The position numbers and the translations under genes are program-made. A model generated the notes under the pieces. It was not told the DNA's origin, did no database searches, and saw nothing but the letters and a program-made list of their open reading frames with translations. Shown here piece after piece: positions 26,048 to 38,017 of a DNA stretch of 64,000 bases; position 1 is the first letter of the stretch; every line of letters begins with the position of its first letter. Source of the DNA: Mucilaginibacter roseus (GTDB lineage: Bacteria > Bacteroidota > Bacteroidia > Sphingobacteriales > Sphingobacteriaceae); assembly GCF_021215455.1 (NCBI RefSeq), contig NZ_JAJPWV010000001.1, positions 496,001 to 560,000 of the forward strand, given 5' to 3'.

Positions 26048-26416
26048 TTAAAAATCTTTTGGATCAAGAAATAAAGAAGCCAAATACAGAATAACAAACA
26101 ACGCTACAGGAATTATGAATGCTAAGTAGTTGAACACTTCTAATGGTACAGCTATTAAGCGGCCTATTATTGGTAGTGTTAATAATAAAAAGCATAATAA
26201 GTCAATCCTGATACGTTTTGCAGGTCTTGATTCTTTAGGGGTGATAATTATGAATAATGCGACGATGGCTAAAAGAGAAAGTAACTGATCGATATTCCAA
26301 AAGTCAAATAAGGATAAAGGTAGCCATAGTAAAAATGGCAATCCAATCATTTCTCCTTTCAGCACAATACACAGATAGGCAATGAGGGATAGTGTTTTGA
26401 CTTTTGAGCGCGACAT
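26048..26416 (-). CDS. Small hypothetical membrane protein
   Basis: 122 residues, about four hydrophobic segments (around 10-35, 43-60, 70-90 and 95-115) and a charged 'PKESRPAKRIRID' loop in the middle. No family recognised. It lies between the cystathionine synthase-like gene (convergent) and the GT39 gene (same strand, 92 bases upstream). The ~100 bases after it contain a short repeated phrase 'GATTGCGGAT' (25956 and 25971), probably a remnant of a low-complexity intergenic repeat. Confidence 0.55.
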   Translation of the reverse strand: MSRSKVKTLSLIAYLCIVLKGEMIGLPFLLWLPLSLFDFWNIDQLLSLLAIVALFIIITPKESRPAKRIRIDLLCFLLLTLPIIGRLIAVPLEVFNYLAFIIPVALFVILYLASLFLDPKDF

Positions 26417-30533: not shown

Positions 30534-31646
30534 TTGAAACAGGAAATAATCATAACCGGGATAAACATTTACCGCTTCAATATACCAATGGAGCCATTTA
30601 GTATAGCTACCGGCACAATGGATCATGCACAGAATGTATTTATCCGGGTGCATACCGATGCGGGTTTTTATGGGGTGGGCGAGTGCTCGGCCTTCCCGAT
30701 GATTGTAGGCGAAACGCAGGATACCTGCCTGGTTATGGCAAAAGAATTTGCCCGTTTATGGGTTGGTAACAACGCCCTGGATATTGAAGCCCGTATGCAG
30801 CAACTGCATAGTTTTACCGCAGGTAATACTACCATCAAGAGCGCGTTTGATATGGCCCTTTTTGATATTGCCGCCAAGAACGCAGGCTTACCGCTATACA
30901 AATTTTTAGGCGGTGCGGTACGAGATATTGAAACTGACATCACCATAGGTATTGGTATACCCGAAGCCATGGCCGAAAAGGCTGCGCATTTTAAGGCTAC
31001 CGGTGCTACTATATTAAAGGTAAAATTGGGTAAGGACGCGCTCACGGATGTTGAGCGCATAAAACAGATTCGCAATGCTGTGGGAGATAGTATGCGCATT
31101 CGCGTGGATGCCAATCAGGGTTGGAGTTTTGACGATGCTGTTTTAGCACTAAATGGCATAGCACCATATAATATAGAATTTTGCGAGCAGCCTATGCGCA
31201 CCTGGTATGACGACCGCTTGCCCGAACTCATGCAACAATCGTCTGTAAAAATTATGGCTGATGAAAGCGTGTATAATCATCATGATGCACGTAAACAGAT
31301 CGAAAGCGGATCATGCCATTATATTAACATTAAATTCTCCAAATCAGGCGGCATGCTCGAAGCGAAAAAGATTCATGATGTAGCAGCCCTGCACAATATA
31401 CCGTGCATGATGGGCGGCATGCTCGAAAGCCGTATTGGCCTGAGCGCTAAGCTGCACTTTGCCTACTCAAGCCCGAATATTAAATTTTATGATATGGACA
31501 CCTGTATGCTTGGGCACCTGGCCGACCCATGTGTAGGCGGCGTAAAATATAACGGATATTATTTGAAGATAGATGATGTACCCGGAATTGGCGCAGATGC
31601 CGATGAGAACTTTTTAGCGAATTGTGAAAGGTTTACCATCGAATAA
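30534..31646 (+). CDS. Dipeptide epimerase (L-Ala-D/L-Glu epimerase type), TTG start
   Basis: Enolase-superfamily enzyme of the muconate-lactonising/dipeptide-epimerase group, 370 residues. The catalytic 'LKVKLG' K-x-K, the metal ligands in 'RVDANQGWS', 'FCEQPM' and 'MADESV', and the second catalytic Lys in 'INIKFSKSGG' are all present. Such enzymes turn L-Ala-D-Glu from murein tripeptide into L-Ala-L-Glu during cell-wall recycling, though other dipeptides are possible. The start is TTG at 30534: an in-frame stop lies 21 bases upstream, and the next Met (residue 17) would remove the first beta strand. The NlpC/P60 peptidase at 56.9 kb could supply its substrate. Confidence 0.87.
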   Translation: MKQEIIITGINIYRFNIPMEPFSIATGTMDHAQNVFIRVHTDAGFYGVGECSAFPMIVGETQDTCLVMAKEFARLWVGNNALDIEARMQQLHSFTAGNTTIKSAFDMALFDIAAKNAGLPLYKFLGGAVRDIETDITIGIGIPEAMAEKAAHFKATGATILKVKLGKDALTDVERIKQIRNAVGDSMRIRVDANQGWSFDDAVLALNGIAPYNIEFCEQPMRTWYDDRLPELMQQSSVKIMADESVYNHHDARKQIESGSCHYINIKFSKSGGMLEAKKIHDVAALHNIPCMMGGMLESRIGLSAKLHFAYSSPNIKFYDMDTCMLGHLADPCVGGVKYNGYYLKIDDVPGIGADADENFLANCERFTIE

Positions 31647-31701: not shown

Positions 31702-33072
31702 TTACTTGCTCAAATCAGCAAAATGCTTAAAGAACAGCGGTATAGTTTCAATGCCTTTAAAGTAGTTGGCAATATCATACTTTTCGTTTGGTGAGTGCAG
31801 GTTGTCACTATCCAGGCCAAAGCCCATCAATACGGTTTTTATGCCAAGCTCTGCTTCAAATAATGCTACGATGGGTATGCTGCCGCCGCCACGGGTTGGT
31901 ATAGGCTCTTTCCCGAATGATTCGGCAATGGCTTGTTGTGCCGCTTTGTAGGCTATGCTATCAGTTGGCGTAACCACCGGTTCGCCGCCGTGGTGCGGGG
32001 TTACTTTTACTTTAACTGTGGCCGGAGCTATACTCAAAAAATAATCAGTAAACAATTTGGTTATTTTAGCTGAACCCTGGTTGGGCACCAAACGCATAGA
32101 TATTTTGGCACTTGCTTTTGATGGCAATACGGTTTTGGCACCTTCGCCAATGTAGCCACCCCAAATGCCGTTTACCTCAAGGGTAGGGCGGGTACCGGTA
32201 CGTTCAAAGGTGGAATAACCTTTTTCGCCCCAAAGTTCGTTAACGCCAAGGTCGGCTTTATATTCCGCATCATCGTAAGGCGCACTGTTTAGGGCATCAC
32301 GTTCGGCACTACTCAAATCTATTACATCATCGTAAAAACCGGGGATGGCTATGCGGTTATTTTCGTCATGTAGTGAAGCAATCATTTTAGCCAGTATAGT
32401 GGCCGGGTTGGCAACTGCACCGCCGTAAACGCCGGAGTGCAGATCGCGGTTAGGACCGGTAACTTCAACCTCAAGATAGGAGAGGCCACGTAAACCGGTT
32501 TCAAGAGACGGGTGTTCCATACTGATCATGGCCGTGTCTGATATTAATATAACGTCGGCTTTTAGCCTGTTTTTATTCTGCTTAACAAAATCGCCCAGGT
32601 TGTCTGAACCTACTTCTTCTTCTCCCTCAATCATAAATTTAATGTTGCAGGGCAGGCCGTCAGTTTGCATCATCAGCTCAAAAGCCTTTACATGCATATA
32701 AAACTGGCCTTTGTCATCACACGCGCCACGGGCAAATATCTTACCGTCGCGTATGGTGGGCTCAAACGGTGGTGTTTCCCACAGTTCCAGTGGGTCAGGC
32801 GGTTGTACATCGTAATGCCCGTAAACCAAAACCGTTGGTTTATTGGCATCAATAATTTTTTCTCCGTAAACAATAGGGTAGCCGGCTGTTTGGCATACTT
32901 CTACGTTATCGGCGCCGGCTTCAATTAGCTTCTTTGCAACAAAGTCAGCTGTTTTTAAAACGTCGGCTTTATATTTTGGGTCTGCGCTTACAGACGGGTA
33001 GCGCAGTAAATCAAACAGTTCATCAAGCATTCGCTGCTCATGCTGTGCAACATAATTTTTTATGACTGACAT
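31702..33072 (-). CDS. M20-family dipeptidase
   Basis: Zinc metallopeptidase of the M20/ArgE/PepV group, 456 residues from ATG 33072. Metal-binding motifs are 'VYGHYDVQPPDP' (His and Asp), 'GACDDKGQ' (bridging Asp) and 'EGEEEVGS' (general-base Glu and metal Glu); the lid domain sits in the middle (~210-330). It has no signal peptide, so it probably hydrolyses dipeptides in the cytoplasm. An in-frame TTG at 33093 would add seven residues, but it lies within the -7 promoter box and is rejected. It converges with the dipeptide epimerase, so both neighbours act on small peptides. Confidence 0.92.
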   Translation of the reverse strand: MSVIKNYVAQHEQRMLDELFDLLRYPSVSADPKYKADVLKTADFVAKKLIEAGADNVEVCQTAGYPIVYGEKIIDANKPTVLVYGHYDVQPPDPLELWETPPFEPTIRDGKIFARGACDDKGQFYMHVKAFELMMQTDGLPCNIKFMIEGEEEVGSDNLGDFVKQNKNRLKADVILISDTAMISMEHPSLETGLRGLSYLEVEVTGPNRDLHSGVYGGAVANPATILAKMIASLHDENNRIAIPGFYDDVIDLSSAERDALNSAPYDDAEYKADLGVNELWGEKGYSTFERTGTRPTLEVNGIWGGYIGEGAKTVLPSKASAKISMRLVPNQGSAKITKLFTDYFLSIAPATVKVKVTPHHGGEPVVTPTDSIAYKAAQQAIAESFGKEPIPTRGGGSIPIVALFEAELGIKTVLMGFGLDSDNLHSPNEKYDIANYFKGIETIPLFFKHFADLSK

Positions 33073-33090
33073 AAATAAATGTATTTGCAG

Positions 33091-33098
33091 CAAATATA
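33091..33098 (-). promoter_or_regulatory. -7 promoter box (TATATTTG) for the M20 peptidase
   Basis: Perfect TAnnTTTG on the minus strand, 18 bases upstream of ATG 33072. Its final TTG is what creates the false upstream start at 33093. Confidence 0.65.
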
Positions 33099-33178: not shown

Positions 33179-33349
33179 TCAATCAGCAGTTGATATATCA
33201 TGTATAGTACTGCCCGGAGCTTTCTCGTTTAAACGAGCCTTTTCTATTTTAATAGTATTCTCGGCAGGTACGTCGTTTTTCTTGTTAAATGACCATGCAG
33301 TTATGCCTGATGTAAGTATGATGGCAGCTGCTATAAAGTATTTTTTCAT
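33179..33349 (-). CDS. Small secreted peptide with C-terminal DISTAD motif (member 1 of 10)
   Basis: A 56-residue product starting 'MKKYFIAAAIILTSGITAW', i.e. a signal peptide or membrane anchor, then a charged mature part that ends exactly at the stop with 'GSTIHDISTAD'. The ending is a variant of the G-x-K-K-D-[IV]-S-x-A-D terminus shared by the nine genes upstream on the same strand. It is the most diverged and most downstream member. There is no match to a family I know. Function unknown. Confidence 0.75.
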   Translation of the reverse strand: MKKYFIAAAIILTSGITAWSFNKKNDVPAENTIKIEKARLNEKAPGSTIHDISTAD

Positions 33350-33393
33350 CGTTCTGAAATGTCTAATGCTTAAAAATCTTCCTCACGTTACAA

Positions 33394-33585
33394 TTAGTCT
33401 GCTGAAGACACATCTTTTTTATCACCTGCTTTAGTGAAATCGGCTGAAGAAACGTCCTTTTTGTCGCCTGCTTTAGCGTCTGCTGATGACACGTCTTTTT
33501 TATCGCCGGCCTTGTTTTCTGTTGCTGCTACTGAAGAGAATACGGTTGAAAGAACTAATGCTGCTGCTATGATTGACTTTTTCAT
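33394..33585 (-). CDS. Triple-repeat secreted peptide precursor (member 2; tandem copy A)
   Basis: 63 residues: signal peptide 'MKKSIIAAALVLSTVFSSV', predicted cut near Ala20-Ala21, then three copies of 'AGDKKDVSSAD' at residues 26-36, 39-49 and 53-63, the last ending at the stop codon. Linkers are 'AK' and 'FTK'. At DNA level the first and second repeats differ in 7 of 11 codons, all silent, so the peptide itself is under selection. It is one of five near-identical 258-bp units. The function is unknown; it looks like a multi-copy peptide precursor. Confidence 0.85.
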   Translation of the reverse strand: MKKSIIAAALVLSTVFSSVAATENKAGDKKDVSSADAKAGDKKDVSSADFTKAGDKKDVSSAD

Positions 33586-33651
33586 GATCTGTATTTTATT
33601 GGGTGTTTGTTTGTTGTTGTATGTTGATTACCTGTAAGTTGTGTGTTGTAA

Positions 33652-33843
33652 TTAGTCTGCTGAAGACACATCTTTTTTATCACCTGCGTTAGTGAAATCT
33701 GCTGAGCTTACATCTTTTTTATCGCCTGCTTTTGAGTCTGCTGATGACACGTCTTTTTTATCGCCGGCCTTGTTTTCGGTTGCTGCTACTGAAGAGAATA
33801 CGGTTGAAAGCACTAATGCTGCTGCTATGATTGACTTTTTCAT
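33652..33843 (-). CDS. Triple-repeat secreted peptide precursor (member 3; tandem copy B)
   Basis: 63 residues, same signal peptide and three 'AGDKKDVSSAD' repeats as copy A, with linkers 'SK' and 'FTN'. The 'SK' linker and the 'GTGTCTGC'-type spacer upstream are shared with the copy at 34168 but not with the copies at 33394 and 33910, an alternating pattern that points to duplication of a two-gene, 516-bp block. Confidence 0.85.
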   Translation of the reverse strand: MKKSIIAAALVLSTVFSSVAATENKAGDKKDVSSADSKAGDKKDVSSADFTNAGDKKDVSSAD

Positions 33844-33909
33844 GATCTGTATTTTATTGGGTGTCTGCTTGTTGTTATATGTTGATTATCTGTAAGTTGT
33901 ATATTGTAA

Positions 33910-34101
33910 TTAGTCGGCTGAAGACACATCTTTTTTATCACCTGCGTTAGTGAAATCCGCCGAAGAAACGTCCTTTTTGTCGCCTGCTTTAGCGTCTGCT
34001 GATGACACGTCTTTTTTATCGCCGGCTTTATTTTCTGTTGCTGCTATTGAAGAGAATACGGTTGAAAGAACTAATGCTGCTGCTATGATTGACTTTTTCA
34101 T
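33910..34101 (-). CDS. Triple-repeat secreted peptide precursor (member 4; tandem copy C)
   Basis: 63 residues; signal peptide differs from copy A by one residue ('SSIAA' for 'SSVAA'). The linkers are 'AK' and 'FTN', and the three 'AGDKKDVSSAD' repeats are unchanged. The upstream spacer matches that of copy A. The conservative Val/Ile change falls in the signal peptide while the repeated motif stays fixed. Confidence 0.85.
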   Translation of the reverse strand: MKKSIIAAALVLSTVFSSIAATENKAGDKKDVSSADAKAGDKKDVSSADFTNAGDKKDVSSAD

Positions 34102-34167
34102 GATCTGTATTTTATTGGGTGTTTGTTTGTTGTTGTATGTTGATTATCTGTAAGTTGTGTATTGTAA

Positions 34168-34359
34168 TTAGTCTGCTGAAGACACATCTTTTTTATCGCC
34201 TGCTTTAGTGAAATCCGCCGAAGAAACATCCTTTTTATCGCCTGCTTTTGAGTCTGCTGATGACACGTCTTTTTTATCGCCGGCCTTGTTTTCGGTTGCT
34301 GCTACTGAAGAGAATACGGTTGAAAGCACTAATGCTGCTGCTATGATTGACTTTTTCAT
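34168..34359 (-). CDS. Triple-repeat secreted peptide precursor (member 5; tandem copy D)
   Basis: 63 residues with linkers 'SK' and 'FTK' between the three 'AGDKKDVSSAD' repeats; it pairs with copy B by linker and spacer sequence. Same strand and same 66-base gap as its neighbours, with no promoter box in the gap, so the array is likely read as one message. Confidence 0.85.
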   Translation of the reverse strand: MKKSIIAAALVLSTVFSSVAATENKAGDKKDVSSADSKAGDKKDVSSADFTKAGDKKDVSSAD

Positions 34360-34425
34360 GATCTGTATTTTATTGGGTGTCTACTTGTTGTTATATGTTG
34401 ATTATCTGTAAGTTGTGTATTGTAA

Positions 34426-34617
34426 TTAGTCTGCTGACGACACATCTTTTTTATCACCTGCATTGGTAAAATCCGCTGAAGAAACATCCTTTTTGTCGCC
34501 TGCTTTAGCGTCTGCTGATGACACGTCTTTTTTATCGCCGGCCTTGTTTTCTGTTGCTGCTACTGAAGAGAATACGGTTGAAAGAACTAATGCTGCTGCT
34601 ATGATTGACTTTTTCAT
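34426..34617 (-). CDS. Triple-repeat secreted peptide precursor (member 6; tandem copy E)
   Basis: 63 residues from the ATG at 34617, with linkers 'AK' and 'FTN'. The frame stays open upstream to an ATG at 34716, but that extension reads through the intergenic spacer and would bury the signal peptide, so the start aligned with the sister copies is chosen. The upstream spacer differs slightly (one extra base), marking the edge of the near-identical array. Confidence 0.85.
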   Translation of the reverse strand: MKKSIIAAALVLSTVFSSVAATENKAGDKKDVSSADAKAGDKKDVSSADFTNAGDKKDVSSAD

Positions 34618-34684
34618 GATCTGTATTTTTATTGGGGTATTTATTGTTGTTGTATATTGATTATCTGTAAGTTGTGTGTTGTAA

Positions 34685-34876
34685 TTAGTCTGCTGAAGAC
34701 ACATCTTTTTTATCACCTGCGTTAGTGAAATCTGCTGAGCTTACATCCTTTTTATCGCCTACTTTATAGTCTGCTGACGATACGTCTTTCTTGTCACCTG
34801 CATTGGTAGTGTTTGCTGATACCGAGGTGAATACTGTTACTAAAGCCAGTGCGCTTGCTAAGAATATCTTTTTCAT
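34685..34876 (-). CDS. Triple-repeat secreted peptide precursor (member 7; diverged copy F)
   Basis: 63 residues. The signal peptide is different ('MKKIFLASALALVTVFTSV'), yet the three repeats are kept: 'AGDKKDVSSAD', 'VGDKKDVSSAD', 'AGDKKDVSSAD', with linkers 'YK' and 'FTN'. A diverged leader with a conserved repeat shows that the repeat, not the leader, carries the function. It is likely the ancestral single copy from which the five-copy array arose. Confidence 0.85.
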   Translation of the reverse strand: MKKIFLASALALVTVFTSVSANTTNAGDKKDVSSADYKVGDKKDVSSADFTNAGDKKDVSSAD

Positions 34877-34945
34877 ATCTGTATATTTTAAATTTTATAG
34901 TCTTTGTGTAATAAATATTTTTTATATATGATTATATTTGTTATT

Positions 34946-35083
34946 TCAATCGGCTGAACTGATGTCGTTCTTAAATCCAATCAGTACATGAAGAGGCGCC
35001 TGGGGCTTAGGCTCATGCTTTTTTTGGCATGACGCTAAAAATCCACCCACTGCTATCAATGATATCCATGCTAACTTTTTCAT
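34946..35083 (-). CDS. Small lipoprotein ending GFKNDISSAD (member 8)
   Basis: 45 residues. Lipoprotein signal with lipobox 'FLASC' (Cys19), a Lys/His/Pro-rich linker ('QKKHEPKPQAPLH'), and a C-terminus 'GFKNDISSAD' that ends at the stop. It has one copy of the motif instead of three. A lipid anchor with a short stalk would display the C-terminal motif at a membrane surface. It is shorter than usual gene-calling cutoffs. Confidence 0.75.
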   Translation of the reverse strand: MKKLAWISLIAVGGFLASCQKKHEPKPQAPLHVLIGFKNDISSAD

Positions 35084-35119
35084 GATGATTTGTTTTATAA
35101 GTTTTTGTAGTACAAATGT

Positions 35120-35263
35120 TTAGTCTGCAACGCTAATGTCTTTTTTAAAGCCGGCCAGTGTTTTGGCTGGTGCTTCTATTCGCAGCTTAGCTTCTTTTTT
35201 ACAAGATGTAAGTGAAGTTGCGCCTACGGTGGCTATAGCTATAATTATGGCGATCTTTTTCAT
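35120..35263 (-). CDS. Small lipoprotein ending GFKKDISVAD (member 9)
   Basis: 47 residues. Lipoprotein signal with lipobox 'SLTSC' (Cys21), a short Lys/Ala-rich stalk ('KKEAKLRIEAPAKTLA') and the single C-terminal motif 'GFKKDISVAD'. Same layout as member 8 with a different stalk sequence, so only the lipobox and C-terminus are conserved between them. Confidence 0.75.
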   Translation of the reverse strand: MKKIAIIIAIATVGATSLTSCKKEAKLRIEAPAKTLAGFKKDISVAD

Positions 35264-35296
35264 GTTCGTTGCTTATTAAAATTGTATAGTTAAGTA

Positions 35297-35449
35297 TTAG
35301 TCGGCTACGCTTATATCTTTTTTAAATCCACTCAATTTGCTTAGTGATGCGCCGATTTGCTCATTTTTTTGAGTAACCTTAGAATTGGCATTCAAAGAAA
35401 ATGAACCAATAACTAATAAAATTGCTGTAATAAAAAATAAAAATTTCAT
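35297..35449 (-). CDS. Small secreted peptide ending GFKKDISVAD (member 10, first of the cluster)
   Basis: 50 residues. A signal peptide ('MKFLFFITAILLVIGSF') without a lipobox, a short polar segment, and the C-terminus 'SGFKKDISVAD'. It is the most upstream gene of the leftward cluster; any promoter would be within 35450-35600, but no TAnnTTTG box is evident on that strand. The next gene rightward is divergent and encodes the TPR/DHp protein. Confidence 0.72.
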   Translation of the reverse strand: MKFLFFITAILLVIGSFSLNANSKVTQKNEQIGASLSKLSGFKKDISVAD

Positions 35450-35754
35450 ATAATTTATATTTTAATCTATAGTTAATATAATATTCATACCAATGCTTTC
35501 TCGTTTTTTTCGCTCAGATTAAACGAACAACTTGCTTACCCCGCGGATGTGTTTCATTTAAACAAACCGCTGATATTGCTGCATATTTTTCTAAATATTA
35601 TTTTATCATATAATGTGTTGTTAGTCAATTATTTAACAGTTGCAAATATACCTATGTTTATGCAATGCTCAAGAATTTTAAAAAAAAGTTTTCAACAAGG
35701 CTTTTATTGCTATTTTTATAACTTTCGGTAATAAAGGCCGTATAAGAGTGTTTG
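35450..35754. other. AT-rich divergent intergenic region between peptide cluster and TPR gene
   Basis: 305 bases with no convincing gene (the short frame at 35549-35731 is low complexity). A possible operator is the inverted repeat TGTTT-CATTT-AAACA at 35550-35564. TAACTTTC at 35719-35726 is one base off the -7 consensus and could serve the TPR gene. Otherwise only A/T runs are seen. Confidence 0.4.
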
Positions 35755-37194
35755 ATGAATAGATACCTTCTCTTCCTAATCCTGTTTACTTTGGGCTTTA
35801 ACGTTTACGCATTTAGCGGTACAAATGTTATGCTTCAGGATACCAGTGAGGTTATCAAATTTAATAAGCAGGGTTACGATAGCCGGCTTACCGATCCCGA
35901 ACAAACTTTAGCCAACGCTAACCGCGCGCTTGACCTTTCAAAAAAGCTTAATTATGTGCGTGGTATGGGCGAATCGTACCGGGTGTTAGGTATAGGGTAC
36001 TACTATTTGAACGAGGCTGAAAAATCAATAGATAATTACCTTAAGGCGCTGGAGTATTTCAGGCGTATAAATGATTTGCAAAGCGAGGCAAAGGTTTATA
36101 ACAACATTGGTAACCTTTTTAGGGACAACGATTATGAACAGTCTCTCAATTATCTGAACAAGTCTCTTACAATAGCTTTAAAGCTTAAGGATAGGGAGCT
36201 TATAGCTTCGTTATACCTCAATATCGGAAACATTAAGTACCGGCAAAAAAGCTTTAACCAGGCGCTTGATTATTATAACCGTAGCAGTGTTATATTTTCT
36301 GAACTACAGGATACGGTGAACATAATTAAGTGTATCCAAAACAAGGGTGTAATTTACTTTTACCTTAATGATTATGGCAAGTCGGAGAAATTGCTGCTGC
36401 AGGCCAATGATGCAGCTAAGCGGCATGATCTTAACCAGACCGTTGCCAGTATTAATTTAACGCTTGCATCGTTATACATAGCAAAAGATAAATTTGCTGA
36501 CGCGGTTAGGGTAGTGGAAGAAGGTAAAACCTATTCAAACATTATTAAAGATCAAAAACTGATTTACGATTACGAGTATACCAATTACCAGCTGGAGTTT
36601 AAGCGTAAGAATTACGAGAAGGCTTTACGCTACTTGCAGGCGATATACCGGCAGGACAGCACCTTGCACAAATCTAACGAGTCAACCAAAATCAACCTGA
36701 TACAAAAGCAGTTTGAGCAGGCGGAAACAGAGCGGAAGGCCGCCTTGTTATTACAAAGGCAAGCGTATGATAAGCAACGGTTTTTTGGCGTTACCATAGT
36801 GGCTATACTGCTTTTGGTAGTAGTAGGGTTGCTGGTAGGTAATGTTAAACGTAAAGCTAAAACCAATTCGCAACTTACGGAACTGAACGCTGAAGTGTCC
36901 AAACAAAAAGACAATCTGGACAGGATTAATCATCACTTGGAGGAAATTATTGATGAACGGACAAAGGATCTTCAGGTTAAGAATCGTAAATTGTCCGAAT
37001 ACTCGTCTTATCTTTCACATCAAATTAGAGGGCCTATAGCTACGCTTAAAGGATTAATGAACCTGGAACGAGAAGGTTTGGTAGCGCAGGATGAGTGTAT
37101 CAGGATGATGGATAAATGTGTAACAGATATCGACTCGCGTATTATTGAAATGAGCGATATGTTGCACAACCCGGCTAGGGATGCGCTCGATTAA
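35755..37194 (+). CDS. Periplasmic TPR protein with TM segment and histidine-kinase DHp helix but no ATPase domain
   Basis: 479 residues from ATG 35755 (a TTG one codon earlier is ignored). A signal sequence (1-24) leads to about six TPR repeats (~50-310, e.g. 'AKVYNNIGNLF', 'ASLYLNIGNIKYRQ'). One membrane segment (~343-362, 'GVTIVAILLLVVVGLLVG') and a coiled coil follow, then a HisKA-like helix with the H-box 'SHQIRGPIATLKG' (His422). The protein stops ~57 residues later, before any N/G1/G2 ATP-binding boxes, and the DNA downstream holds no remnant of them. Two-domain kinases with this front half are common in Bacteroidota; the missing catalytic half suggests a dimerising or phospho-accepting partner. 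It is divergent from the peptide cluster. Confidence 0.85.
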   Translation: MNRYLLFLILFTLGFNVYAFSGTNVMLQDTSEVIKFNKQGYDSRLTDPEQTLANANRALDLSKKLNYVRGMGESYRVLGIGYYYLNEAEKSIDNYLKALEYFRRINDLQSEAKVYNNIGNLFRDNDYEQSLNYLNKSLTIALKLKDRELIASLYLNIGNIKYRQKSFNQALDYYNRSSVIFSELQDTVNIIKCIQNKGVIYFYLNDYGKSEKLLLQANDAAKRHDLNQTVASINLTLASLYIAKDKFADAVRVVEEGKTYSNIIKDQKLIYDYEYTNYQLEFKRKNYEKALRYLQAIYRQDSTLHKSNESTKINLIQKQFEQAETERKAALLLQRQAYDKQRFFGVTIVAILLLVVVGLLVGNVKRKAKTNSQLTELNAEVSKQKDNLDRINHHLEEIIDERTKDLQVKNRKLSEYSSYLSHQIRGPIATLKGLMNLEREGLVAQDECIRMMDKCVTDIDSRIIEMSDMLHNPARDALD

Positions 37195-37475
37195 GGCCAG
37201 TTAGGATAAATACGCGCCTCAAATAACCCCAAGTAACTGCAATACCACGATATCATTTGCAGAATTAACAATTCGCGGTGCTTTTTGTAGCCCTTAGTTT
37301 CAAACGCTAAAACTTCGTCGTTAGCGGTTACAAAAAAACGCATTTCGCCTTTGCTGGGTTTAAATTTCGATTTCAATACATCGAATACCCTTACTTTTAA
37401 CTTGCTCGCCGGATCGTGAATGATGCCACCGGCAGCCGTTTCATGGTTAGCTATAGATATAAGGTAGTTTGACAT
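37191..37475 (-). CDS. Conserved-looking hypothetical protein
   Basis: 94 residues, soluble, no signal peptide; mixed alpha/beta composition with 'FKPSKGEMRFFVTANDEV' in the centre and an aromatic C-terminus ending 'LFEARIYPNWP'. I do not recognise a family. Its stop overlaps that of the TPR/DHp gene by four bases in a tail-to-tail arrangement without an obvious terminator. Coding seems likely from the balanced composition and the uninterrupted frame. Confidence 0.55.
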   Translation of the reverse strand: MSNYLISIANHETAAGGIIHDPASKLKVRVFDVLKSKFKPSKGEMRFFVTANDEVLAFETKGYKKHRELLILQMISWYCSYLGLFEARIYPNWP

Positions 37476-37666: not shown

Positions 37667-38017
37667 TCAGGCTTTGGCGCGCAATTCTTCGTACAAAAGA
37701 ATCACTTTACGCTGCAATGTTGCTATTTCATTTTCACGCTCAAGGAGCTTCTTCTGTGCAACGCTTAAGTTTGAAGGCTCCGGTTCGGTTTCTTCAATAT
37801 CGCTTGCAAGCAGATAAACTACCGCTACTTCGAAAATATTGGCAATTTGCTCGAGACGTGACAGGTTGATGTCCGTGACACCTGTTTCAATTTTTGAAAA
37901 GGCGGGTATTGATATGCCTAATCTGTTAGCTACGTCCTCCTGGCTCCAGCCACGTTGGTGACGTAATATTCGGATGTTTTTTCCGATTGACTTGTTTGTT
38001 TTCTTTTTCTCGCTCAT
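37667..38017 (-). CDS. XRE-family transcriptional regulator with C-terminal coiled coil
   Basis: 116 residues. The HTH_3 domain is at ~10-65 with the typical helix-turn-helix 'WSQEDVANRLGISIPAFSK' and 'DINLSRLEQIANIF'. The C-terminal ~40 residues ('LSVAQKKLLERENEIATLQ') would form a coiled coil for dimerisation. The gene is monocistronic with its own terminator. Two inverted-repeat systems lie just upstream and are plausible autoregulatory operators. Targets are unknown; it is the nearest regulator to the peptide cluster but not adjacent to it. Confidence 0.88.
   Translation of the reverse strand: MSEKKKTNKSIGKNIRILRHQRGWSQEDVANRLGISIPAFSKIETGVTDINLSRLEQIANIFEVAVVYLLASDIEETEPEPSNLSVAQKKLLERENEIATLQRKVILLYEELRAKA

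Follow-up and report, generated by a model that had tools for sequence, protein, structure and literature searches.

Small secreted peptide genes beside a tetratricopeptide-repeat protein gene in Mucilaginibacter: a candidate ligand and receptor pair

Introduction

The soil bacterium Mucilaginibacter roseus (Sphingobacteriaceae) carries, in the 64,000-nt stretch analyzed here (contig NZ_JAJPWV010000001.1, positions 496,001 to 560,000; hereafter the window), ten consecutive small genes for exported peptides with a short motif in common. Next to them, in divergent orientation, lies a gene for a tetratricopeptide-repeat (TPR) protein. Do the peptides and the TPR protein belong together and, if so, in what capacity?

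The sequences and a predicted structure suggest a peptide ligand and its periplasmic TPR receptor, a pair that would resemble the RRNPP systems without being a member of them; we judge the case for this pair to be evenly balanced. Cell-to-cell signaling is the likely use of such a pair. More doubtful, although possible, is the wider proposal of a family-wide peptide communication in Gram-negative Sphingobacteriaceae, in which the C-terminal motif of multi-copy, lineage-specific lipoprotein and secreted precursors would be read by a periplasmic TPR receptor without a kinase domain.

The peptide gene cluster

The features of the locus are listed below in window coordinates (aa, amino acids).

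35297..35449, minus strand: gene 1, 50-aa secreted peptide (signal peptide) with a single C-terminal GFKKDISVAD; counterparts in genomes G168, G082, G198, G136, and G255
35120..35263, minus strand: gene 2, 47-aa lipoprotein (LTSC), C-terminal GFKKDISVAD
34946..35083, minus strand: gene 3, 45-aa lipoprotein (LASC), C-terminal GFKNDISSAD
34685..34876, minus strand: gene 4, 63-aa secreted peptide, three GDKKDVSSAD repeats; of the six duplicates, the one that diverges most
34426..34617, minus strand: gene 5, 63-aa triple-repeat peptide, ATG start
34168..34359, minus strand: gene 6, 63-aa triple-repeat peptide
33910..34101, minus strand: gene 7, 63-aa triple-repeat peptide
33652..33843, minus strand: gene 8, 63-aa triple-repeat peptide
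33394..33585, minus strand: gene 9, 63-aa triple-repeat peptide
33179..33349, minus strand: gene 10, 56-aa secreted peptide ending TIHDISTAD; it closes the cluster and belongs to a distinct paralog type
35752..37194, plus strand: candidate receptor with signal peptide, TPR array (predicted periplasmic), one transmembrane (TM) helix, coiled coil, and H-box (HisKA-like) hairpin; Pfam TPR_12, 2.9e-21
35450..35751, no strand: intergenic region between the divergent genes, presumed site of both promoters
31702..33093, minus strand: M20 dipeptidase, a conserved neighbor beyond the cluster; NCBIfam PRK08201.1, 2.3e-170, above cut-off

All ten minus-strand open reading frames (ORFs; 33179-35449) of 45, 47, 50, 56, and six times 63 aa are present as described in an earlier reading of the sequence alone (the sequence-only reading). 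As it had reported, each begins with a signal peptide or a lipobox (judged by eye), each has HDISTAD, KKDVSSAD, KNDISSAD, or KKDISVAD directly before the stop codon, and four of the ten are shorter than 60 aa. It had also held that leaders and stalks were wholly different and the C-terminus alone common, which was incorrect: the DNA of five copies (33394-34617), with that of their leaders, is 91-97% identical. The six 192-bp genes are tandemly duplicated with a period of 258 bp (259 in one step), and the sixth copy is 76-81% identical to the other five. In gene 5, an in-frame upstream GTG would extend the ORF to 34716 (96 aa); the ATG form has 63 aa.

Six genes contain three internal copies of the motif, three contain one C-terminal copy, and one is divergent. 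Because each of the six holds three internal GDKKDVSSAD (18 in total), the conserved unit is the repeat and not only a C-terminal tag. The window's own motif peptides are KAGDKKDVSSAD and GFKKDISVAD; motifs of other lineages include NKKDVGTAD, FKRDLGSAD, and DKGNLGTWD. Outside the cluster, the cluster-type ending [DN][ILV][SGA]xAD was found in none of the 522 window ORFs of at least 30 aa, nine of which end in D. A DNA pattern of the ending with at most one mismatch matched this cluster alone in the organism's own genome (12 matches), where no other copy was found.

Coding selection on the motif

The 18 repeats show 12 DNA versions and a single peptide, with synonymous variation at all ten codons; thus, selection acts at the protein level. 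In the nine codons before the stop of genes 1-3, we observed 11 synonymous and no non-synonymous base differences relative to G168, and 10 synonymous and 2 non-synonymous differences relative to G082. The remaining codons of the same genes showed 27 synonymous and 23 non-synonymous differences from G168 and 35 and 80, respectively, from G082. These counts indicate protein-level selection on the motif and drift of the leaders and stalks. Gene 1 by itself gave 5 vs. 0 (G168) and 3 vs. 0 (G082) synonymous vs. non-synonymous differences in its last nine codons. The signal was weaker in gene 10 (2 synonymous and 1 non-synonymous relative to G168; 3 and 4 relative to G082).

A 258-bp tandem array could in principle be non-coding DNA in which ORFs arose by chance. 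We give this explanation practically no credence, since it is contradicted by the synonymous-only variation in the 18 repeats and by the 100 of 126 loci in which the TPR gene adjoins genes with repeated motifs.

Distribution of the gene pair

An ortholog of the TPR gene was found in 137 of 149 Mucilaginibacter genomes (116 of the 117 of good quality) and in 157 of 399 family genomes, representing 11 of the 25 Sphingobacteriaceae genera sampled. A class-wide search (E 1e-40) matched 6 of 295 genomes, all six within the same family and none outside it. No relative was found in virus contigs.

We read 126 loci upstream of the TPR gene: the window and five relatives, 80 further loci of the genus, 39 from ten other genera, and G207. 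Motif genes were called by an automatic rule (a 9-mer ending in D with at least five identities to the motif of the locus; the motifs of 20 loci were set by hand), so the counts are biased toward D-ending motifs, and signal peptides were called by a simple hydrophobicity rule. The rule detected motif genes in 117 of the 126 loci (83 of the genus and 34 others), and at least two motif copies in 98 (82 and 16, respectively). Two loci with repeat proteins containing masked stretches, L105 and L117, were added by eye and bring the latter number to 100. This gives 85 of 87 loci with motif genes in the genus and 34 of 39 elsewhere, the latter covering nine of the ten other genera. Three of the seven loci without them (L114, L184, and L187) are cut by contig ends, that of L114 lying approximately 1.2 kb upstream; the other four are L217, L183, L212, and L215. 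A search for homologous C-termini beside similar genes in related genomes had been set beforehand as a test of the idea, and the idea survived it.

Pattern searches had given a different picture. A strict motif pattern suggested rarity (seven genomes among 399 of the family and seven among 149 of the genus), which was a limit of the pattern and not true rarity; the reversed control pattern gave one match in the family genomes, and G116 was a lone match without a cluster. With a broader pattern the number in the genus rose to 41 of 149, and inspection of the loci around the TPR gene raised it to almost all. Likewise, the apparent lack of a cluster in 20 of the 80 genus loci reflected the regular expression: in nine of these a variant motif occurs, either in clusters of small genes or in one repeat gene, and ten have one longer repeat protein; the remaining locus is L114. 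The sole good-quality genus genome without the TPR gene (G357) had no match to the broad pattern, which is weak evidence because that pattern finds only 41 of 149.

A profile of 14 non-Mucilaginibacter lipoproteins was run on 30 genomes. In all nine TPR-positive genomes it matched to position 44-46 in short ORFs, whereas in the 20 TPR-negative family genomes none of the matches listed reached position 40 in a short ORF. The TPR-negative matches listed were mostly leaders of larger proteins, and the two that extend further (to 42 and 44) belong to frames of 412 and 294 aa, respectively; a short ORF of the TPR-negative G050 has no such ending. The one outgroup genome gave no match among those listed.

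G207 has three TPR paralogs (L217 and L240), two of them in tandem with no motif peptides seen beside them and the third at a contig start.

Motifs and precursor forms

The catalogue comprises 494 genes, 391 of which end exactly at the Asp of the motif, 73 have one to four extra residues, and 30 have more than four. The sequence-only reading had described the conservation as pinned to the exact C-terminus, which fits the 391 and overstates the case for the 103 of 494 with a tail. The preference for an Asp carboxylate at the end suggests, from sequence, a carboxylate clamp in the TPR domain; given the 103 genes with tails, either the end is made by proteolysis or a free carboxylate is not needed.

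Motifs were lineage-specific (KKDIGTAD, KRDLGSAD, and LGTWD, among others). The 79 distinct motifs have D-K-K-D-L-G-T-A-D as their commonest residues, and the residue before the final D is most often A (37), followed by W (20), G (13), and Y (4). By eye, the penultimate residues of the lipoproteins and of the closing gene were Phe/Phe in L178, Tyr/Tyr in L179, Met/Trp in L197, and Tyr/Trp in L205, too few cases to use. In genus g21 (L188, L190, L193, L199, and L200), a lipoprotein variant carries a CxxC before the ending (CRGCGDWD or CGGCGQWD) and has a longer tail; a role of the CxxC in binding metal or heme, or in a disulfide, is conceivable.

Precursors differed between Mucilaginibacter and the other genera. 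Several motif copies within one gene were present in 186 of 413 genus genes and in 2 of 81 outside, and the number of copies per locus had a median of 19 (range, 1-37) in the genus and 1 (1-8) outside. High copy number was reached in the genus by two routes, either up to 12 catalogued small genes or one long secreted repeat protein of 158-553 aa with 5-37 counted copies (DKKNTGSAD, DKHTVGSGD, EKGQTGTGD), two of the ten such proteins being partly masked. The secreted proteins of L105 and L108 (553 and 490 aa) are rich in GDKNTTGSGD-like and EKGQTGTGD repeats, with 37 counted in L108 and part of L105 masked. The typical gene outside the genus encodes a 45-50-aa lipoprotein ending LGTWD, LGSFD, LGSYD, DMGGWD, or similar; 16 of the 34 loci hold tandem copies. 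Genes ending PKSDIATAD, LASWD, or similar close many other clusters, as gene 10 does here; outside the genus, such closing non-lipoprotein genes (..LASWD type, in more than a dozen loci) mostly fail the identity rule.

A lipobox was recognized by pattern in 121 of 413 genus genes and in 78 of 81 outside. The motif X-K-(D/E)2, which in the available text of the source is a Bacteroidetes surface export signal for lipoproteins (PMC5080379), was matched by 49 of the 78 non-genus lipoproteins vs. 2 of the 121 in the genus. These figures bear on the main rival explanation, that the TPR protein is an inner-membrane sensor of lipoproteins or secreted reporters in transit or stuck in the periplasm, and that the pair reports the state of lipoprotein or protein export rather than carrying a signal between cells. 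The lipobox and X-K-(D/E)2 frequencies outside the genus, the predicted periplasmic TPR array, and the presence of several ligand genes for one receptor are all in its favor. It has no need, however, for a lineage-specific motif or for 20-37 copies, and 292 of the 413 genus precursors have no lipobox by pattern, nor do the closing genes outside the genus. On balance we consider it unlikely.

Database matches

None of the six window peptides tested reached the cut-off of a Pfam or NCBIfam model, nor did any of ten lipoproteins of other genera reach that of an NCBIfam model. Pfam gave one weak match among the 14 lipoproteins; a YfaZ match was set aside, being below cut-off and covering residues 1-55 of 63. 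All 14 lipoproteins of set A3 match the model of the PG1828-family lipoprotein (E up to 0.01; best, 2.5e-7). When ten lipoproteins were run directly against this model, nine matched with 20-31 of 50 bits, within residues 1-35 (leader and stalk), and we read the similarity as probably that of a shared leader. Lipoproteins with a leader and stalk of this type are found in L185, L192, L194, L196, L179, L181, L202, L206, and L211. Searches of the open-licence literature, preprints excluded, yielded no description of this system.

Repeated cores behind leaders, together with weak lipoprotein matches to an NCBIfam model of a chryseobasin-related precursor (3 of 10 tested directly, the best with 20.4 of 40 bits, and 3 of the 14 lipoproteins), raise the question of ribosomally synthesized and post-translationally modified peptides (RiPPs) or antimicrobial peptides, which the TPR protein would then regulate or confer immunity to. 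We hold this to be quite improbable. None of these matches reaches the cut-off, and most of what they cover is leader, lipobox, and stalk; the motif is hydrophilic, and a Sec signal stands in place of a RiPP leader. That no RiPP enzyme is nearby, as the sequence-only reading had stated, holds across the 14 larger ORFs that were tested (24.5-45.1 kb), among which no modifying enzyme was recognized; two of them have no Pfam family, and at least one further ORF there (26048-26416), like the rest of the genome, lay outside the test.

The candidate receptor

The TPR array is probably periplasmic, to judge by its signal peptide and by basic residues that follow the TM helix, in which case re-import by Opp would not be needed. 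An AlphaFold2 model had a mean predicted local distance difference test (pLDDT) score of 80.2 and shows a TPR fold; in blocks of ten, residues 31-290 scored 83-97. The closest solved structures were LGN-peptide complexes (Z up to 26.2), followed by RapF with an inhibitory peptide, Rap-Phi3T, Rap-CSF, and NprR-NprX (Z 22.1-23.5 over 263-285 residues; root-mean-square deviation, 3.0-4.5); Foldseek gave E 1e-6 for Rap-CSF. These scores are permissive and concern fold, not function, because TPR folds score well against each other. Arg45, Arg77, Asn117, Asn118, and Asn157, which may or may not belong to a Lys/Asn/Arg clamp in the groove, were conserved in the alignment.

The HisKA match (3.9e-4) is below cut-off. 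All 121 aligned sequences have His423, Arg426, and Pro428, and the window protein ends 57 aa past the H-box His, with no Pfam match to HATPase_c up to E 1. The open frames of full-length orthologs are mostly 475-530 aa long (maximum, 563); the lack of an ATPase domain in the orthologs is based on these lengths because the fetched stretches stop at the last matched residue. Neither a helix-turn-helix (HTH) nor a Rap effector domain was matched in the candidate receptor. The phosphoacceptor His is thus invariant despite the lack of an ATPase domain; the protein is maybe a phosphotransfer or dimerization partner of another kinase.

Correlated divergence of motif and TPR half

Motif distance was compared with the distance of the TPR half by partial Mantel tests on 114 loci (2000 permutations; phylogeny ignored). 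Given the cytoplasmic half, the partial correlation between motif and TPR half was 0.538 in the genus (n = 80) and 0.557 in the other genera (n = 34), with 0/2000 permutations in each case. The reverse comparison, motif with cytoplasmic half given the TPR half, yielded 0.011 (836/2000) and -0.333, respectively. The M20 dipeptidase, present in 89 of the 121 regions tested, served as a second reference: given this protein, the correlation was 0.536 in the genus (n = 54) and 0.413 in the others (n = 33), and the reverse values were -0.018 and -0.030. By distance, concave TPR helices scored somewhat higher than convex ones (genus, 0.296 vs. 0.225; others, 0.249 vs. 0.093). TPR columns as a whole exceeded cytoplasmic columns outside the genus (P about 1e-5) and hardly did so within it (P 0.05-0.08). 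We count this correlated divergence as support for the pairing, not as proof.

The same tests bear on another explanation, in which the peptides act extracellularly (in display, adhesion, ion or mineral binding, or the matrix) and the TPR protein is a mere regulator or a neighbor without contact. Such a role would suit charged, repetitive products, and the whole neighborhood is conserved, housekeeping genes included, with the M20 peptidase a frequent neighbor. It seems an unlikely reading nonetheless, since within and outside the genus motif identity goes with the TPR half rather than with the cytoplasmic half or the peptidase, and since no such peptides were seen, among the matches listed, in the 20 TPR-negative family genomes tested.

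Neighboring genes and promoters

An unassigned 94-aa ORF (37191-37475) and a gene for a Cro/CI-type HTH protein (37667-38017) follow the TPR gene in 24 of 24 and 23 of 24 genus loci, respectively; they could be parts of a circuit or simple synteny. On the other side, an enolase-superfamily gene (MR_MLE; 30534-31646) and the M20 dipeptidase gene (31702-33093) adjoin the cluster and together resemble peptide catabolism. The dipeptidase could degrade the peptides.

A match to the Bacteroidetes-type promoter consensus was not found upstream of the first peptide gene in the window. The full pattern was present at this position in 7 of 114 loci vs. 0.5 in shuffles, and its -7 part in 25 of 114 vs. 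10.2. Promoter matches exceed chance, yet there is no common promoter across loci.

Weighing the pair and its possible mechanism

Several observations weigh against a ligand and receptor pair. In pooled tests the control comparisons also retained a correlation, and the difference was smaller: the TPR half gave 0.397 and the cytoplasmic half 0.243 (1/2000; n = 114), and with the peptidase as reference both correlations remained (TPR half, 0.322; peptidase, 0.265; n = 87). Column by column, concave helices were not better than convex ones (P 0.24 and 0.38). The TPR half, being the part that evolves fastest, is a finer clock, and the Mantel permutations ignore phylogeny. The structural match is open to the caution on TPR folds given above. 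The candidate receptor is without an ATPase domain, and no partner was found for it. In 19 of 119 loci (1 in the genus and 18 outside), the motif is present solely as the end of one small gene; L217, in G207, has TPR copies with no peptides seen, and L183, L212, and L215 have small lipoproteins with no clear motif. Finally, to judge by the export signal, surface export would remove lipoproteins of the other genera from a periplasmic receptor unless they were cleaved or caught before export.

The sequence-only reading had placed the peptides in the class of Phr/RRNPP-like ligands. A ligand remains the best-supported class, because the peptides bear secretion or lipidation signals, are multi-copy and lineage-specific, and adjoin a TPR protein with a modeled Rap/NprR fold; the link to the TPR gene and the internal repeats had been missed. 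Membership in RRNPP itself does not hold, as receptor architecture and compartment differ.

Under the ligand and receptor reading, each of the ten genes would code for a precursor from which a short lineage-specific peptide derives, here K-K-D-[IV]-S-x-A-D. Sec would export some of these precursors as lipoproteins and others as soluble multi-copy forms. The peptide, perhaps released by proteolysis and acting either extracellularly or on the producing cell, would serve as ligand for the product of the divergent gene, with the TPR array facing the periplasm. Once the groove of this array is occupied, the membrane-spanning H-box coiled coil might change on the cytoplasmic side and so act on a partner kinase or regulator, with whatever output that may have. 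Gene duplication or intragenic repeats would raise the peptide dose.

If the two are indeed ligand and receptor, both peptide signaling in Bacteroidota and the signals of TPR sensors become directly testable: the peptides are short enough to synthesize, and the part that would act as receptor is predicted to form a periplasmic domain of its own. Many of the peptide genes have fewer than 60 codons.

Comparison with known systems

The yeast alpha-factor is made from secreted precursors that contain several identical short peptides, and it is encoded by several genes. Its receptor belongs to a different class, and processing sites were not identified in the present peptides; the likeness lies in the multi-copy precursors.

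Carboxylate-clamp TPR domains, which the available text of the source describes for the C-terminal EEVD of Hsp70/Hsp90, share with the present system an acidic C-terminal ending (Asp at the very end in 391 of 494 genes), but differ in that tails are found here in 103 of 494.

The FimS-type TPR sensor histidine kinases of Bacteroidetes (NF053520) likewise have a TPR array behind a signal peptide, followed by a TM helix and a histidine-kinase-like region. Their profile was matched by all 12 members of set A2 (best, 6e-25), and the window protein scored 74.9 bits vs. a cut-off of 600. In contrast to FimS, there is no ATPase domain here, and a candidate ligand is encoded next door. The signal of FimS is unknown according to the available text of its description, whose authors raise the possibility that its TPR motifs bind a polypeptide (PMC11053733).

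The closest comparison is with the RRNPPA systems of Bacillota (Rap-Phr, NprR-NprX, PlcR, and AimR), in which a small gene for a Sec-exported propeptide stands beside a TPR receptor gene, as it does here in divergent orientation. In Phr systems, as given in the available text of the source, the pheromone is usually at the C-terminus of the Sec-exported propeptide and is sometimes repeated inside it (PMC11343458). Further likenesses are the TPR superfold of the predicted model (Rap/NprR entries, Z 22-23.5) and the receptor-specific motifs. In contrast, RRNPPA receptors are cytoplasmic, with an N-terminal HTH or Rap effector domain before a C-terminal TPR array, whereas the candidate receptor has, in this order, signal peptide, TPR array, TM helix, coiled coil, and H-box and is predicted to span the membrane, and the host is Gram-negative, often with many propeptide genes per locus, up to 37 copies, and many lipoproteins. 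The RRNPP survey, in its available text, covered only Firmicutes and virus genomes (PMC10075063). Peptide quorum sensing through TPR receptors has been described for Gram-positive Bacillota, and the pair reported here is a comparable one in Bacteroidota; if the proposal is true, TPR-type sensors of Bacteroidota would gain their first ligand class, and RRNPP quorum sensing would have a membrane-bound counterpart.

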